NCBI GenBank assembly: GCA_022826755.1
Contig: JAJDUG010000006.1
Span: 1 to 45,057, forward strand
Direction: 5' to 3'
Length of the DNA stretch: 45,057 nucleotides
DNA from: Acidobacteriota bacterium
Lineage (GTDB): Bacteria > Acidobacteriota > Terriglobia > Versatilivoradales > Versatilivoraceae
Positions 11,486-18,702 of this stretch are shown piece after piece. The position numbers were made by a program, and so were the translations under genes. The notes below the pieces were generated by a model, which did not search any database, had not been told where the DNA came from, and saw only the letters and a program-made list of their open reading frames with translations. The number at the start of each line of letters is the position of its first letter. Position 1 is the first letter of the stretch.

Positions 11486-11515
11486 TTGACAGTCTCTTCG
11501 GCCCTTTCTTATACT
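11486..11515 (+). promoter_or_regulatory. Promoter of the lysW operon
   Basis: TTGACA, 18-bp spacer, TATACT. The predicted start near 11522 leaves a leader of about 150 bases before lysW, long enough for regulation, but I find no named riboswitch or leader peptide in it. Confidence 0.72.
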
Positions 11516-11673
11516 GCCGCCTGCTGTCGCATCCAACACCGGCCTGGTCACCTGCATTGCCTTGGTCGCCGTCCTGGTTGTGGCTGGTCGGGAAGTGAGG
11601 CACCCATTTTGTTTTAGGTTTTCCACGATATTCAAGATTGCTGCAATCTTTATCGGTGTCCTGGGAGGGTACC

Positions 11674-11838
11674 GTGGCCAACTGCCCGGAATGCGAAGCC
11701 GAATTGGAATTGGATGACGATGTGGAGAAGGGTGAGATCGTAACCTGCGCCGATTGCGGGGCCGACCTGGAGGTCGTGGGCATGGATCCCCTGGAGTTGG
11801 ACCTGGCTCCGGAGGAAGAAGAAGACTGGGGGGAATGA
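11674..11838 (+). CDS. lysW: LysW amino-group carrier protein
   Basis: Small acidic carrier protein (54 residues) whose C-terminal glutamate is joined to the amino group of 2-aminoadipate or glutamate, protecting and presenting it during lysine or ornithine synthesis. A zinc-finger-like pair of CxxC motifs is present (CPEC at residues 4-7 and CADC near 28-31), with an acidic body, and the chain ends in EDWGE, the conserved LysW terminus. The GTG at 11674 is chosen because GGAGG lies 5 bases upstream and it begins VANCPEC, as family members do. An in-frame codon at 11638 would add 12 unrelated residues. It is first in the operon with lysX, lysY and lysZ. A terminator-like structure follows directly. 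Confidence 0.93.
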
Positions 11839-11882
11839 TCCCCCGGCAAGGAGTGTTTACAACTCACCTTCCGACCCGATCG

Positions 11883-11935
11883 ACCACAGAGGATGCGAGA
11901 GTTGCTTGACCGAATCCGCTCCCTGTGGTTTTTTT
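11883..11935 (+). terminator. Intrinsic terminator or attenuator between lysW and lysX
   Basis: The left arm ACCACAG-a-GGA-t-GCG (11883-11897) pairs with the right arm CGC-TCC-CTGTGGT (11917-11929). Thirteen base pairs are interrupted only by two single-base bulges, and seven T residues end at 11935. The lysX ATG follows 10 bases later. The structure should stop part or all of the transcription leaving lysW. Confidence 0.75.
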
Positions 11936-11945
11936 GTGTGTACTG

Positions 11946-12812
11946 ATGAAAATCGGATTGCTCTGCTCCATCCTGCGCAAGGAAGAAAAGCTGCTGCTGG
12001 AGGAGTTTCGACGCCGTGGGGTTGCTCCGGAGATCGTCGACGACCGCGAGCTGGTCTTTCGTCTGGACTCCAGGCATCTGGATTTCGACGTGGTGCTGGA
12101 GAGAAGCGTCAACCACTCCCGGGCGCTCTATTCCCTGAAGGTTCTCAACGACTGGGGGATCCGGACGGTCAACCGCTATCCTGTGGCCGAAATTTGCGGC
12201 AACAAGTTCCTGACCACCAGCGCGCTCCTCCAGAATCGGATTCCCACCCCTCGGACCGTCATGGCCTTTACGCCCAAGTCCGCCCTCAGAGCCATCGAGG
12301 AACTGGGTTATCCGGTGGTGCTCAAGCCGGCCGTCGGTTCCTGGGGACGGCTGCTCTCCAAGATCAATGATCGAGAGGCCGCCGAAGCCGTGCTGGAACA
12401 CAAGGATGTCCTGGGTTCCTACCAACACTCCGTCTTCTATATCCAGGAGTACGTTCCCAAGTCGGGCCGGGACATCCGGAGCTTCGTGGTGGGTGACGAG
12501 ACCATTTGCGCCATCTATCGCTATGCTTCTCACTGGATTACCAACACGGCCCGGGGAGGGCGAGCCGAGAATTGCCCGGTAACCCCGGAAATCGACCGCC
12601 TGTCTCAGGAGGCCGCTCGAGCCGTTGGCGGCGGGGTCCTTGCCGTGGATCTCTTCGAGTCCGAGTCGGGATTTCAGGTCAATGAAGTCAACTACACCAT
12701 GGAGTTCAGGAATTCCATCCATACCACCGGCGTCGACATCCCGGCCAGAATCGTCGACTACGTCCTGAAGGCTGCTGCCGAAGGGCAGTCCGGGTCCGAG
12801 CAGCTCTCATGA
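11946..12812 (+). CDS. lysX: LysX/ArgX: LysW-aminoadipate (or glutamate) ligase, ATP-grasp
   Basis: ATP-dependent ligase attaching the amino group of 2-aminoadipate (lysine route) or glutamate (arginine route) to the C-terminal glutamate of LysW. About 288 residues of the RimK-like ATP-grasp family. Visible features are the N-terminal [15 protein letters not shown], the ATP-binding strand [16 protein letters not shown], and the metal-binding end [20 protein letters not shown]. The frame opens at 11925, but MKIGLL at 11946 matches the usual family N-terminus. There is no Shine-Dalgarno sequence before it; the terminator T-run occupies that place. It overlaps lysY by 4 bases (ATGA), showing translational coupling. 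I cannot decide LysX from ArgX specificity by eye. Confidence 0.9.
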
Positions 12813-13852
12813 TCTCGGTTTCCATCGTGGGCGGTTCCGGTTATACCGGCGGAGAGGTGTTGCGCCTTTTGCTGGACCATCCGGAGGTTGAGCTCTGTCA
12901 GGTGACCTCGGAATCCAGGGTGGGCAAGTTCGTCCATTCGGTGCACCCCAACCTTCGCAAGCGCTGCAAGCTGCAGTTCGTCTCCAGCCGGGCCTTGAAG
13001 AAGGTGGACCTGCTCTTTCTCTGCCTGCCCCACGGGATGGCCATGGACCGCATGGAGGAGTTCCTCGATCTGGGCAGCCGGATCATCGACCTCTCCTCCG
13101 ATTTTCGCTTGCGGGCCCCGGCGGACTACCCGACCTGGTACCACCACGAGCATTCCAGGCCGGAGCTGCTGGGCGAGGCGGTCTACGGCATTCCCGAACT
13201 GCACCGGCAGGAGATTCGGGAGGCCAGGCTGGTGACCGGGGCGGGCTGCCTGGCGACAACCGTCATTCTTGGGCTTTACCCCCTCTTCAGGGCAGGACTG
13301 GTGGATTCGGAGGACATCTTCATCGAGGCCAAGGTGGGTTCGTCGGCTGCCGGCAACAAGTCCAGCCTGGCTTCCCACCACCCGGAGCGCAGCGGTTCCC
13401 TCCGGTCCTTCCAGCCGACCCGCCACCGCCACACGGCCGAGGTTCAGCAGGAGCTGGCTTTCAACGGGGCCAGGCCCCGGATTCACTTGTCGGCCACCTC
13501 CACCGATTCGGTGCGGGGTGTCCTGGCCACGGCCCAGGTGCTGCTGGAGCGGTGTCCGGAGGAGAAGGCGCTCTGGAGAACCTATCGGGAGGCCTACCGG
13601 GCGGAGCCCTTTCTCAGAATCGTCAAGGAAAGATCAGGGGTTTACCGTTACCCGGAACCCAAGATCCTGGCGGGATCCAACTACTGCGACGTCGGCTTTG
13701 AGCTGGACCCGGCCGAGGGACGCCTGGTGGTGCTTTCCGCCCTGGACAACCTGATGAAGGGGGCGGCGGGAAACGCCGTTCAGGCCATGAACGTGATGCA
13801 CGGCTGGGAGGAGACCCTGGGGTTGGGCTTTCCCGGTTTGCATCCCGTATAA
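12809..13852 (+). CDS. lysY: LysY/ArgC-type LysW-acyl-phosphate reductase
   Basis: NADPH-dependent reductase turning the LysW-bound acyl phosphate made by LysZ into the semialdehyde; homologous to ArgC. 347 residues. The N-terminal dinucleotide-binding motif is [15 protein letters not shown]. The catalytic cysteine lies in [17 protein letters not shown] and the catalytic histidine in [24 protein letters not shown] and [10 protein letters not shown] are also family signatures. It starts inside the lysX stop (ATGA overlap), and its own TAA overlaps the next ATG (TAATG). Sharing an operon with lysW, lysX and lysZ argues for the carrier-protein pathway over the acetylated arginine pathway. Confidence 0.92.
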
Positions 13853-14307
13853 TGATGAGCAGAACTGATTTGTCGGGTCCTTCCATGGAGTTGTCGAGGT
13901 CGAAGTCACTCAAGTCGTGCGCGGCGGTTGTTCTGGCTGCCTTGACCTGTTTCGTCTGGGCGCCCGGGACGGCTCTCCCGGGGGACGAGAAGGACGAGTC
14001 CAAGAAGGAACAACCCTTTGCCTTGCTCAAGGGGAGCTGCTTCGATCAGAGAGGCTTCAGCTTGCCGGGAGTGGCCATTCAGGTGTCGCTGCCGCCGGGG
14101 GAGAACGGAAAGAAGAAGAAAAAGCGTTGGCGGATGCAGTCGGACCGCCGCGGAGAATTTGCCGTCCGGCTTCCCGCCGGAGAACGGACCGTGGTGGTGA
14201 CCGCCAGCAAGAAGGGTTACCGGAAGACGGAAGAGTCCATTCGGTTCTACGCCGACGAGCTGCAGCACATCGTCATCCAGATGAAGCCGGTTGCCAAGTC
14301 GAAGTAG
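13852..14307 (+). CDS. Exported protein with a carboxypeptidase regulatory-like domain
   Basis: 151 residues, function unknown. The N-terminus has a signal-like hydrophobic stretch (CAAVVLAALTCFVWAPGTA) followed by a charged linker. From about residue 55 a single beta-sandwich of the carboxypeptidase-regulatory type follows: LKGSCFDQRGFSLPGVAIQV, SDRRGEFAVRLPAGERTVVV, ASKKGYRKTEESI. Such domains often bind surfaces or sugars, or serve as structural modules in exported proteins. The ATG overlaps the lysY stop as TAATG, so it is translated with the lys genes although nothing links it to amino acid synthesis. It resembles the N-terminal domain of the next gene, suggesting a pair arising by duplication or acting together. 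Confidence 0.7.
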   Translation: MMSRTDLSGPSMELSRSKSLKSCAAVVLAALTCFVWAPGTALPGDEKDESKKEQPFALLKGSCFDQRGFSLPGVAIQVSLPPGENGKKKKKRWRMQSDRRGEFAVRLPAGERTVVVTASKKGYRKTEESIRFYADELQHIVIQMKPVAKSK

Positions 14308-15566
14308 CCGGTTCCTCCTTTGAAATGCGGGTGCCCGATTCGATGCCGACCCCTGCCGCCAAAACCATGTTTCGAGGAAGTCTCCAGTTGACCGCGGGAT
14401 TGCGGTCCATCGCCGGGATGGGCACGGTGCCCCTTCTCTTGGTGCCGGCTCTGATTTGGGGACTGCTTTCCGGGGAAGCCAGGCCCCAGGGCGACGAGGA
14501 TGCGCCTCGGACCAAGTCGATTCGCGGCCACGTGGCCGGGCCCGACGGAAAATCCCAGCCGGGGGCCAAGGTCTTTGTCAGGAACGTCAAGAACGAGACC
14601 ACCACCATCCTCGTCACGGACGAGAAGGGACTCTTTGCCATTTTCGGCCTGGAGCCGGCGCTGGACTACGAGGTCTATGCCGAATACCAGCAGTTCAGAT
14701 CGAGAGTTCTGGCCATCAGCTCCATGCTCAAGCGCTACGACAACGTCCTCAACTTCAAGCTGGAGGAGAGGGCGGTCGAGGAAAAACCCGCGCATGTCCC
14801 CGTTCGGATGCAGAGCGTTGAGATTCCCGGCAAGGGAGGCTTGCAGTTTGCAGGCGACTGGTATCCCCCACCGGACACGGAGGAGGGGCGGTTTCCGGCG
14901 GTGGTGCTGCTGCACGGTTCGGGGGAGACCCGCGGCGTTTGGGATACCTTCATCCAGGAGAAGCTTGCGGGGAACAGGGTCGGGGTGCTCAACCTCGATC
15001 TGACCTCCGGAGAAGAGGAGTCCCCAGGGGGCGCGGCTGCTCCTTCTGAGGCGGGACCGGATCAGTTGGACGCCTTGCTGAAACTGTTGGAGGCGACCTT
15101 TGCCTGGCTGGAGGCCCGGGGAACAATCGATCCCTACCTCATCGGCGTGGTGGGCACGGGTCTTGGAGCCGACCTGGCGTTTCTGGCCTCCGGCAAGTTC
15201 GAAAATGTGCGCGCGGCGGTGGTGGTTTCGGGCAACCTGGCCAATGTCCGCGGCGTGGCCGAGCGGGCTCAAGACTTCCAACCTCACTCCATCCTCTTCC
15301 TGGCAACCCAAGGGGACGAGTCCTCCACCGCTTCCATCGCCGGATTGGAACGGCAGACCGGTTACCCCAGGCAAACCCGCGTGTTCGAAGGCTCCAGTTC
15401 TCGGGGGTCCGAGGTGCTTGCGGAGATTCCGGAAGCCTCCGACCTGGTGGTGGAGTGGCTGGACAAGAGGCTGCGCTGAACGCCCCCGCGGAATTCAGGC
15501 GGCAGCGGCCGGACTCGCCCCAGCCATCGGGTTGCGCCCAGCCGTTCCCCCAGGCCAAGTCGAAGT
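14293..15566 (+). repeat. 13-bp direct repeat flanking the hydrolase-like gene
   Basis: GCCAAGTCGAAGT occurs at 14293-14305 (last codons of the preceding gene) and again at 15554-15566 (19 bases upstream of the lysZ ATG). The 1.25-kb interval contains exactly the hydrolase-like gene. A repeat this long at this spacing is unlikely by chance and may mark the ends of an inserted or duplicated segment. Confidence 0.5.
14325..15479 (+). CDS. Exported alpha/beta-hydrolase-fold protein with N-terminal carboxypeptidase-like domain; probably inactive
   Basis: About 384 residues. After a hydrophobic export segment (VPLLLVPALIWGLLSGEA) comes a carboxypeptidase-regulatory-like domain (SIRGHVAGPDGKSQPGAKVF, TDEKGLFAIFGLEP), then a dienelactone-hydrolase-like alpha/beta domain (FPAVVLLHGSGETRGVWD, DPYLIGVVGTGLGADLAFLA). 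In that fold the nucleophile elbow reads G-x-S-x-G; here it is GTGLG, with glycine at residue 279 where serine (or cysteine) is expected. Hydrolysis is therefore unlikely unless another residue substitutes. The start at 14325 is the first plausible ATG and has no Shine-Dalgarno sequence; 14343 is an alternative. It lies inside the lys operon between 13-bp direct repeats. Confidence 0.7.
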   Translation: MRVPDSMPTPAAKTMFRGSLQLTAGLRSIAGMGTVPLLLVPALIWGLLSGEARPQGDEDAPRTKSIRGHVAGPDGKSQPGAKVFVRNVKNETTTILVTDEKGLFAIFGLEPALDYEVYAEYQQFRSRVLAISSMLKRYDNVLNFKLEERAVEEKPAHVPVRMQSVEIPGKGGLQFAGDWYPPPDTEEGRFPAVVLLHGSGETRGVWDTFIQEKLAGNRVGVLNLDLTSGEEESPGGAAAPSEAGPDQLDALLKLLEATFAWLEARGTIDPYLIGVVGTGLGADLAFLASGKFENVRAAVVVSGNLANVRGVAERAQDFQPHSILFLATQGDESSTASIAGLERQTGYPRQTRVFEGSSSRGSEVLAEIPEASDLVVEWLDKRLR

Positions 15567-15584: not shown

Positions 15585-16403
<819 letters not shown>

Positions 16404-17169: not shown

Positions 17170-17562
17170 CTACCGGGGGCGGGCGCCCGCCACGGCATGG
17201 AACGCTTGATCGAAGGTCTTGACCTCGCTTACACCACGCCTGCGGCAGCTTGCAAGGTGGCAGAGGTCCCGTGGGCTCAAGCCGGAATACTGTTCATGCA
17301 GTTTTCGGGCCAGGGTGACGTCCTCTTCTTCCAACGGCCACACTTCCACCCGAAACCTTCGGATCAGCGCCATGGCCGAATCGAGAGTTTCGATTCTCGC
17401 AGCCGGAAGATAGGCGTGCACCAACTCTTGGAGAACCTCCGCCGAGGTGCAGAGCGGCGAACCGTTCCGATTGGCTTCGACGAAGAAGTCCCGAGCAGGG
17501 TCTCGAAGTGGATGAGGTCGTCCGACCGCGTACATGAAGAGGTTGGTGTCGACAAAGATCAC
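17170..17562 (-). CDS. PIN-domain toxin (VapC-like), first module
   Basis: 130-residue PIN-domain ribonuclease, the toxin of a type II module. The metal-binding acids are in place: D5 in FVDTNLF, E46 in EVLQEL, D99 in SPRDLCHLA and D118 in KTFDQAF. The start is GTG at 17562, overlapping the antitoxin stop by 4 bases (GTGA), so the toxin is translationally coupled to its antitoxin. RNA target unknown. Confidence 0.85.
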   Translation of the reverse strand: MIFVDTNLFMYAVGRPHPLRDPARDFFVEANRNGSPLCTSAEVLQELVHAYLPAARIETLDSAMALIRRFRVEVWPLEEEDVTLARKLHEQYSGLSPRDLCHLASCRRRGVSEVKTFDQAFHAVAGARPR

Positions 17563-17834
17563 GTATCGGATGCACCCCTTCGACGCGATTGATTGATCAG
17601 GTCCAGGTGCCGGTTCCAGTCCGGTTCCGTCTCAGATCCCTCCCGACGGTCGCAAGCGCGGAAAAATTCTTCCAGATCCTCCGGGGATTGGAAGGGCTTG
17701 GCCTGCTGCCGCTCCTGCAGGCGCTCGCGAGCCGCGGCCCTCAACCATGCGCTCAACGTCATGCCCTCCCTTCGCGCCTGGTGCACGAAACGGTCTCGAT
17801 CTTCATCGGGGATGACAAGCTGAACTCTGGCCAT
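17559..17834 (-). CDS. Ribbon-helix-helix-type antitoxin, first module
   Basis: About 91 residues. The N-terminal part MARVQLVIPDEDRDRFVHQA followed by GMTLSAWLRAAARERL fits a ribbon-helix-helix DNA-binding fold. The C-terminal half is acidic and polar (SPEDLEEFFRACDRR), the usual toxin-neutralising tail. A GTG at 17843 would add three residues; the ATG at 17834 is preferred because AGGTG lies 7 bases before it. The stop overlaps the toxin start. It probably represses its own operon by binding the palindrome at 17862-17880. Confidence 0.78.
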   Translation of the reverse strand: MARVQLVIPDEDRDRFVHQARREGMTLSAWLRAAARERLQERQQAKPFQSPEDLEEFFRACDRREGSETEPDWNRHLDLINQSRRRGASDT

Positions 17835-17861
17835 GGCAATCACCTGTATTAACTATAAGCA

Positions 17862-17880
17862 TGTGTATACATATTACACA
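17862..17880 (-). promoter_or_regulatory. Putative operator of the first toxin-antitoxin module
   Basis: TGTGTA at 17862-17867 and TACACA at 17875-17880 form a perfect 6-bp inverted repeat with a 7-bp spacer, 28 bases upstream of the antitoxin ATG. A TATAGT hexamer lies between the palindrome and the gene. This is the usual place for autoregulation by a ribbon-helix-helix antitoxin. Confidence 0.45.
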
Positions 17881-17975
17881 CACTTGCCTCAGCGATCAAC
17901 TTCCACGGGTTTCTCCCGGAGCATGACTTTGCCCCGGCCGCTTGGTGATGCTACCATGAGCGGGTAAGGTATGAT

Positions 17976-17998
17976 GTACATGTTAATGAACATTACAG
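17976..17998 (+). promoter_or_regulatory. Putative operator of the second toxin-antitoxin module
   Basis: TGTACATGTT-AATG-AACATTACA: the inner ATGTT/AACAT arms are perfect and extend outward with a one-base offset (TGTA/TACA). A possible -10 box TATGAT (17970-17975) adjoins it. The Phd-type antitoxin starts 8 bases downstream. Confidence 0.45.
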
Positions 17999-18006
17999 GT
18001 GGATCG

Positions 18007-18288
18007 ATGACTGACAAGCATTCTATCGCCGAGGCGCGCCGCAATCTACCGAAACTCGTTCGCGTGGCAGAACAGGGAATGGAGGTGGAGTTGACGCGGC
18101 GCGGCAAGCCCGTCGCGGTGTTGATCGGCTGCAAGCAATTCGAGCGGCTCGCTTCGAGCCGCCGCAGTTTCGTTACGGCGTATCAGGTCTTTACGAATGA
18201 GAGCGACCTCAGGGAGCTTGCACTTGACCCTGACAAACTGTTTACGAGGCAACGGGAGAAAACACCGGGACGCGACGTTCGATTGTGA
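18007..18288 (+). CDS. Phd/YefM-type antitoxin, second module
   Basis: 93 residues. The N-terminal DNA-binding domain of the Phd/YefM class is recognisable: HSIAEARRNLPKLVRVAEQG, then VELTRRGKPVAVLIGCKQFE. The remainder (YQVFTNESDLRELALDPDKL) is the toxin-binding tail. The frame opens at 17971 inside the presumed operator, so the ATG at 18007, preceded by AGGTGG, is chosen. The toxin follows after 3 bases. Such antitoxins bind palindromes over their own promoter; one lies immediately upstream. Confidence 0.85.
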   Translation: MTDKHSIAEARRNLPKLVRVAEQGMEVELTRRGKPVAVLIGCKQFERLASSRRSFVTAYQVFTNESDLRELALDPDKLFTRQREKTPGRDVRL

Positions 18289-18291
18289 ACT

Positions 18292-18702
18292 GTGAAATAC
18301 CTGCTCGATACCAACATCATCTCGGAGCCTCTCAAGCCGAAGCCGTCCAGCAGCGTCATGCGGCAGTTACGCCGGCATGAGGACGACATTGCGATTCCGG
18401 CGCCCGTCTGGCACGAGTTGCGGTTCGGCTGCGCCCGCCTGGGTCCTTCACGACAACGGGAAGCTATCGAGCGCTATATCGAGGATGTCGTGCTGGCAAG
18501 CCTTCCAGTGCTGGAGTATGACCAGCGAGCCGCTGACTGGCATGCGACCGAACGTGCGCGGCTGAGCGCAGCCGGCAGCACGCCACCGTTTATTGACGGG
18601 CAGATTGCCGCGATCGCTTTCGTCCATAACCTGACCTTGGTCACGTCGAATGTGAGCGACTTTCAGCAGTTCAAGGGACTACGAGTACGAAGTTGGGCGT
18701 AA
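18292..18702 (+). CDS. PIN-domain toxin (VapC/FitB-like), second module
   Basis: 136-residue PIN-domain ribonuclease. Acidic site: D6 in LLDTNIISE, E42 in VWHELRFG, D102 in PFIDGQIAAIA and D123 in SNVSDFQQF. The TPPFIDGQIAAIA pattern and the NxxDF ending are those of the FitB/VapC branch. GTG start 3 bases after the antitoxin stop. This module is divergent from the first PIN module and belongs to a different antitoxin class. Confidence 0.87.
   Translation: MKYLLDTNIISEPLKPKPSSSVMRQLRRHEDDIAIPAPVWHELRFGCARLGPSRQREAIERYIEDVVLASLPVLEYDQRAADWHATERARLSAAGSTPPFIDGQIAAIAFVHNLTLVTSNVSDFQQFKGLRVRSWA

Follow-up and report, generated by a model that had tools for sequence, protein, structure and literature searches.

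In Escherichia coli, the rplL–rpoB attenuator and the rpsU–dnaG terminator are constitutive, partial terminators that follow the gene of an abundant small protein and limit the production of low-copy enzymes encoded downstream. For the lysine genes of Thermus, leader-peptide attenuation has reportedly been proposed, with the terminator situated before the first gene. In clostridial ABC importer operons, stem-loops after the 5' substrate-binding-protein genes terminate transcription at 20.7–96.1%; the efficiency exceeds 90% for hairpins followed by more than five U residues and falls short of 50% for several weaker ones, and most of the spacers that contain such stem-loops are without promoters (PMC9045158). 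Internal operon termination sites that lower the expression of downstream genes have also been mapped experimentally in Methanococcus maripaludis (PMC10450193). No description of a terminator behind the amino-group carrier gene lysW was found in the open-access papers searched.

The window analysed here, a stretch of 45,057 nucleotides from an Acidobacteriota bacterium, contains a hairpin and T-tract between lysW and lysX. This element is most likely a constitutive but incomplete intrinsic terminator that, together with weak initiation at lysX, sets the level of the carrier protein well above that of its enzymes.

Gene context

The carrier gene lysW (11674–11838, + strand) is assigned by TIGR01206 (73 bits, cut-off 53); it has a GTG start codon preceded by the Shine–Dalgarno sequence GGGAGGG, and its product ends in EEEEDWGE. 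The first gene 3' of the terminator is lysX, encoding the [LysW]-aminoadipate ligase (11946–12812, + strand; TIGR02144, 346 bits, cut-off 276), the stop codon of which overlaps the start of an argC (LysY-type) reductase gene (12809–13852, + strand; TIGR01850) in the sequence ATGA. The [LysW]-aminoadipate kinase gene lysZ follows at 15585–16403 (+ strand; NF010659, 425 bits, cut-off 223), and all genes of the lysW–lysX–argC–lysZ region are co-directional on the + strand. A homocitrate synthase above its family cut-off is encoded elsewhere in the same genome, consistent with the aminoadipate route to lysine, and a dapA-type gene is likewise present.

Between argC and lysZ (13852–15479) the lysine operon includes two genes with carboxypeptidase-regulatory-like domains, one of which also has an alpha/beta-hydrolase part. 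Two adjacent PIN-domain-like toxin/antitoxin-like gene pairs, recognized from their translations, occupy 17170–18702, in opposite orientation.

Structure of the terminator

Sequence, folding and comparison together point to an intrinsic terminator at 11882–11935 (+ strand), composed of a hairpin (11882–11930) and a T-tract (11929–11935). In the RNAfold structure the base of the stem is formed by eight uninterrupted pairs, GACCACAG/CTGTGGTT, between 11882–11889 and 11923–11930, within which the outer stem comprises the 5' arm CCACAG (11884–11889) and the 3' arm CTGTGG (11923–11928). Above this base follow a bulge, GGA/TCC, a second bulge, GCG/CGC, a third bulge and a short apical part. The 54-nt hairpin piece has a minimum free energy of −22.2 kcal/mol (z −4.5), and T7 stands directly 3' of the stem, so that a stable hairpin and an immediately adjoining U-tract, the two components of an intrinsic terminator, are both present. 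The sequence-only reading had described a stem of 13 pairs with two bulges; the hairpin stands, and the counts become 14 firm pairs (up to 19) and three single-base bulges. The same reading was correct in placing seven T residues after the stem, at 11929–11935, and ten bases between the T-tract and the lysX ATG at 11946, and in finding no Shine–Dalgarno sequence before that ATG (duplex −2.7 kcal/mol).

A search of both strands for an 8-bp stem base with at least T6 immediately after it finds one site in the window, whereas shuffled windows contain a mean of 0.3 such sites; on its own the sequence is therefore weak evidence, and the element is only mildly unusual for 45 kb. A looser terminator scan yielded more matches in shuffled sequence than in the real window, and the single-sequence argument was therefore dropped in favour of comparison. 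The case against a chance hairpin rests on the precise position of the element, on its conservation among the 12 genomes compared and on the compensatory changes found there. A repeat element was also considered and is ruled out, since the exact 6-bp stem with T5 is present as a single copy in the genome.

Conservation within the order

The sample of the order comprises 12 genomes from four genera, all of which have lysX (in L089, G010:C608, the open frame of this gene contains one TGA, reflecting an assembly error or a pseudogene). In each of them lysW lies 106–124 nt upstream of lysX, and a hairpin with a T-tract is found at the equivalent place, beginning 32–50 nt past the lysW stop codon. 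The alignment contains 11 distinct elements, six rows of which belong to one genus, and the independent comparisons therefore number four, one per genus. Three genera have CCACAG/CTGTGG at the base of the stem; the fourth has CCATAG/CTATGG, a compensatory change. All 11 distinct sequences of the alignment share the T5 directly 3' of the stem. The inner stem has a changed sequence from genus to genus and yet pairs in each: it reads GGA.GCG/CGCTCC in the genus of the window, CTTCYATCGG/CCGWRGGGG in L089 and L092, and GTAAR/TTTAT in L090 and L091, with another version in L093.

The RNAalifold consensus has 16 pairs, eight of which are altered on both sides. With kinship left in, 90.9% of the cells are paired, compared with 80.1 ± 1.7% in shuffles, and the covariation score is 0.360, compared with 0.191 ± 0.028; on each measure, all 500 shuffles fall short of the observed value. 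Sliding the partner by one to three columns lowers the pairing to 36–55%, and six divergent sequences from the order each fold at z −4.2 to −6.6. Within the genus, none of the 28 stem positions varies, as against 8 of the 19 apical positions, 8 of the 43 in the upstream spacer and 104 of the 284 third codon positions of lysX. The upstream half of the lysW–lysX spacer (11839–11881, + strand) is not conserved between genera, and neither is any other part of the spacer outside the hairpin and T-tract. Compensatory changes at a conserved place indicate a structure under selection. A comparison of the stem in relatives had been set beforehand as one half of a test of the sequence-only reading, and retention throughout the order, with pairing restored by these changes, agrees with the terminator proposed there.

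Possible regulation of termination

The location of the element before biosynthetic enzymes would also suit a regulated attenuator. Readthrough would then depend on lysine, arginine or loaded LysW, with an alternative fold, a bound protein or a leader peptide as the intermediary. Attenuators typically have conserved terminators, and at the 6-bp base of the stem not only the pairing but also the sequence is retained, as might be expected if a protein bound there. However, in a regulated attenuator one would expect a sensor to be conserved, and no such sensor was found across the genera. An Rfam search gave no family match, and neither the spacer upstream of the stem nor the 5' leader of lysW is alignable between genera, so that the search and the intergenus comparison show no conserved aptamer of riboswitch type upstream of the terminator. 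Pairing of upstream sequence with the 5' arm is within or near the range of shuffles in most genomes, with a partner that differs by genus; L093 (6/200) and L089 (18/200) rank high against shuffles, but with different partners. The open reading frames of the spacer have no runs of Lys or Arg codons, and none of them is a short frame rich in end-product codons overlapping the terminator region; moreover, the ATG at 11896 is lost outside the genus. A 17-residue leader peptide starting there and overlapping the lysX start was considered as a candidate and rejected, its Shine–Dalgarno sequence being weak, its codons showing amino-acid-changing substitutions within the genus and its start being absent from other genera.

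The suggestion in the sequence-only reading that the structure might be switched by the end product thus finds no support in a conserved upstream element, a consistent antiterminator or a leader peptide. A regulated attenuator is accordingly unlikely, and the terminator appears to be constitutive rather than switched. Somewhat less likely again is a modulation of termination according to pathway state, such as through a protein that recognizes the CCACAG/CTGTGG stem base. If this were true, enzyme supply would track demand at a constant supply of carrier, and the element would represent a new kind of attenuator without an aptamer or a leader peptide.

Promoter and translation signals

Comparison within the order locates a sigma-70-type lysW promoter, TTGACA-18-TATACT (11/12 matches), at 11486–11515 on the + strand. 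The 11 order genomes with a contig extending this far all have the same two hexamers and the same 18-nt spacing, at 163–192 nt before the lysW reference point. The leader of about 120–160 nt between the promoter and lysW (within 11486–11673) is not conserved in sequence between genera.

The lysW–lysX interval contains no promoter-like site comparable to this invariant promoter. The best site in this interval, TTGACC-17-TTTTTT, overlaps the terminator; its score is about half that of the lysW promoter, and other genera lack it. This bears on the reading that termination is complete, with a monocistronic lysW and with lysX–argC–lysZ transcribed from a promoter of their own. The strong type of terminator (more than five U residues) and a spacing of more than 100 nt would agree with such an arrangement, but a mere ten bases separate the T-tract from the lysX ATG, and the candidate promoter has the shortcomings just described, which together make this reading distinctly improbable. 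The terminator lies among genes of one pathway that share an orientation, and no promoter was found to follow it, as in an operon-internal element.

Assuming an E. coli-like anti-Shine–Dalgarno sequence, the lysW duplex has an energy of −10.7 kcal/mol in the window and −10.7 to −14.7 kcal/mol across the order, whereas the values for lysX are about −2 to −3 kcal/mol, with one genome at −6.3 kcal/mol. The Shine–Dalgarno sequence of lysW is therefore strong in all members of the order, and that of lysX is almost lacking in 11 of the 12, the exception being L089.

Proposed function

LysW holds the intermediates of the pathway covalently, as their scaffold, and the ratio of carrier to enzymes matters because every molecule in process needs a protein scaffold. 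In the mechanism favoured here, termination that is constitutive and incomplete, transcription would start at the conserved promoter, a site located from its sequence and presumed to be in use, and LysW would be translated from its strong Shine–Dalgarno sequence. The hairpin and U-tract would then release most polymerases and mark the 3' end of the lysW transcript, while a minority would read through to make the lysX–argC–lysZ message. Initiation at lysX is expected to be weak because its start codon comes directly after the U-tract and has no Shine–Dalgarno sequence. As a result, the small carrier would stand in fixed excess over the enzymes acting on it.

By analogy, and with caution, most transcripts should end at about 11930–11937 and a minority should continue. 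So strong a terminator could leave the enzymes in short supply unless a substantial share of polymerases reads through. That the hairpin mainly stabilizes or processes the lysW 3' end, as an exonuclease block or an RNase site giving a long-lived message with little termination, would produce the same carrier excess and has a precedent in the effect of folding energy on transcript stability in clostridial operons (PMC9045158), but the conserved T-tract is needed for termination and not for exonuclease blocking, and this is the least probable of the explanations considered.

Partial termination as a means of setting the ratio, the other proposal of the sequence-only reading, is supported: it fits a lysW with a conserved promoter and strong ribosome site, followed by a lysX with a weak start and no promoter of its own. 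Judged from sequence, the promoter and ribosome site of lysW, the terminator and the weak start after it would all point to an excess of LysW, and this combination is kept across the whole order. The terminator thus offers a concrete and evolutionarily supported place where the ratio of carrier to enzymes is probably set.

Occurrence outside the order

A sample of 399 genomes from the class includes one further genome with lysX, G018 (L094), which belongs to another family. At the same place its stem has another sequence, with GGGG and GAGAA opposite TTCTC and CCCC, followed by TTTTTTATTTTTT, a T-tract of the pattern T6AT6, and the terminator fold has a z of −3.0. Since the stem differs and a T-tract follows it, the function has been kept or rebuilt without the sequence; the arrangement probably arose or was rebuilt independently in this second family. 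In most other Acidobacteriota and in many Chloroflexota, lysW and lysX are spaced by 0–20 nt, which leaves no room for a terminator, so that an excess of LysW, if needed, must be reached otherwise there. Elsewhere in the phylum, spacers measure 1–20 nt in most cases. Such spacers also rule out a generalization to all LysW operons. Only a few of 27 spacers of 40–290 nt from outside the order have a hairpin with a T-rich tail (e.g. L011, L077 and L094); among Chloroflexota, hairpins occur in some of the longer spacers, two of which (L011 and L077) have such tails.

Several of the other lysW–lysX spacers have features of their own. Those of L102, L115, L118, L044, L054 and L060, from unrelated genomes, contain long, nearly perfect palindromes without T-tracts, which look like dispersed palindromic repeats. 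The spacers of about 150 nt in L028, L049, L055 and L057 (Deltaproteobacterial/Thermodesulfobacteriota) share conserved blocks around GAGAGACGCCT.CCGG, GACTCACAACC and TGGAGTTGAGAAGATGA and have neither stable folding nor a T-tract; from their sequence, the blocks could possibly be a promoter or a protein site for lysX. L066, L069 and L008, the records of which are titled Woesearchaeota, Undinarchaeales and Acidimicrobiia, encode LysX proteins 63–76% identical to the acidobacterial one. Some of these titles probably denote mislabelled bins, as L008 matches a genome in the window's own family.

Comparison with known systems

The conserved element belongs to an established class, that of terminators within operons that follow the gene for a small protein probably required in excess. 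The rplL–rpoB and rpsU–dnaG elements of E. coli have a similar layout, although the gene families are other ones and no homology is claimed. The lysine pathway and a terminator are shared with Thermus, but the leader peptide proposed there has no counterpart seen at lysW–lysX. The sites in M. maripaludis involve an archaeal polymerase and terminator type, unlike the element described here (PMC10450193). The clostridial ABC importer operons differ in their first gene, which in this acidobacterial locus encodes the amino-group carrier for lysine biosynthesis; they resemble the present locus in having a small abundant first gene, a stem-loop with a U-tract in a long spacer and downstream partner genes that are needed in lower amounts (PMC9045158).
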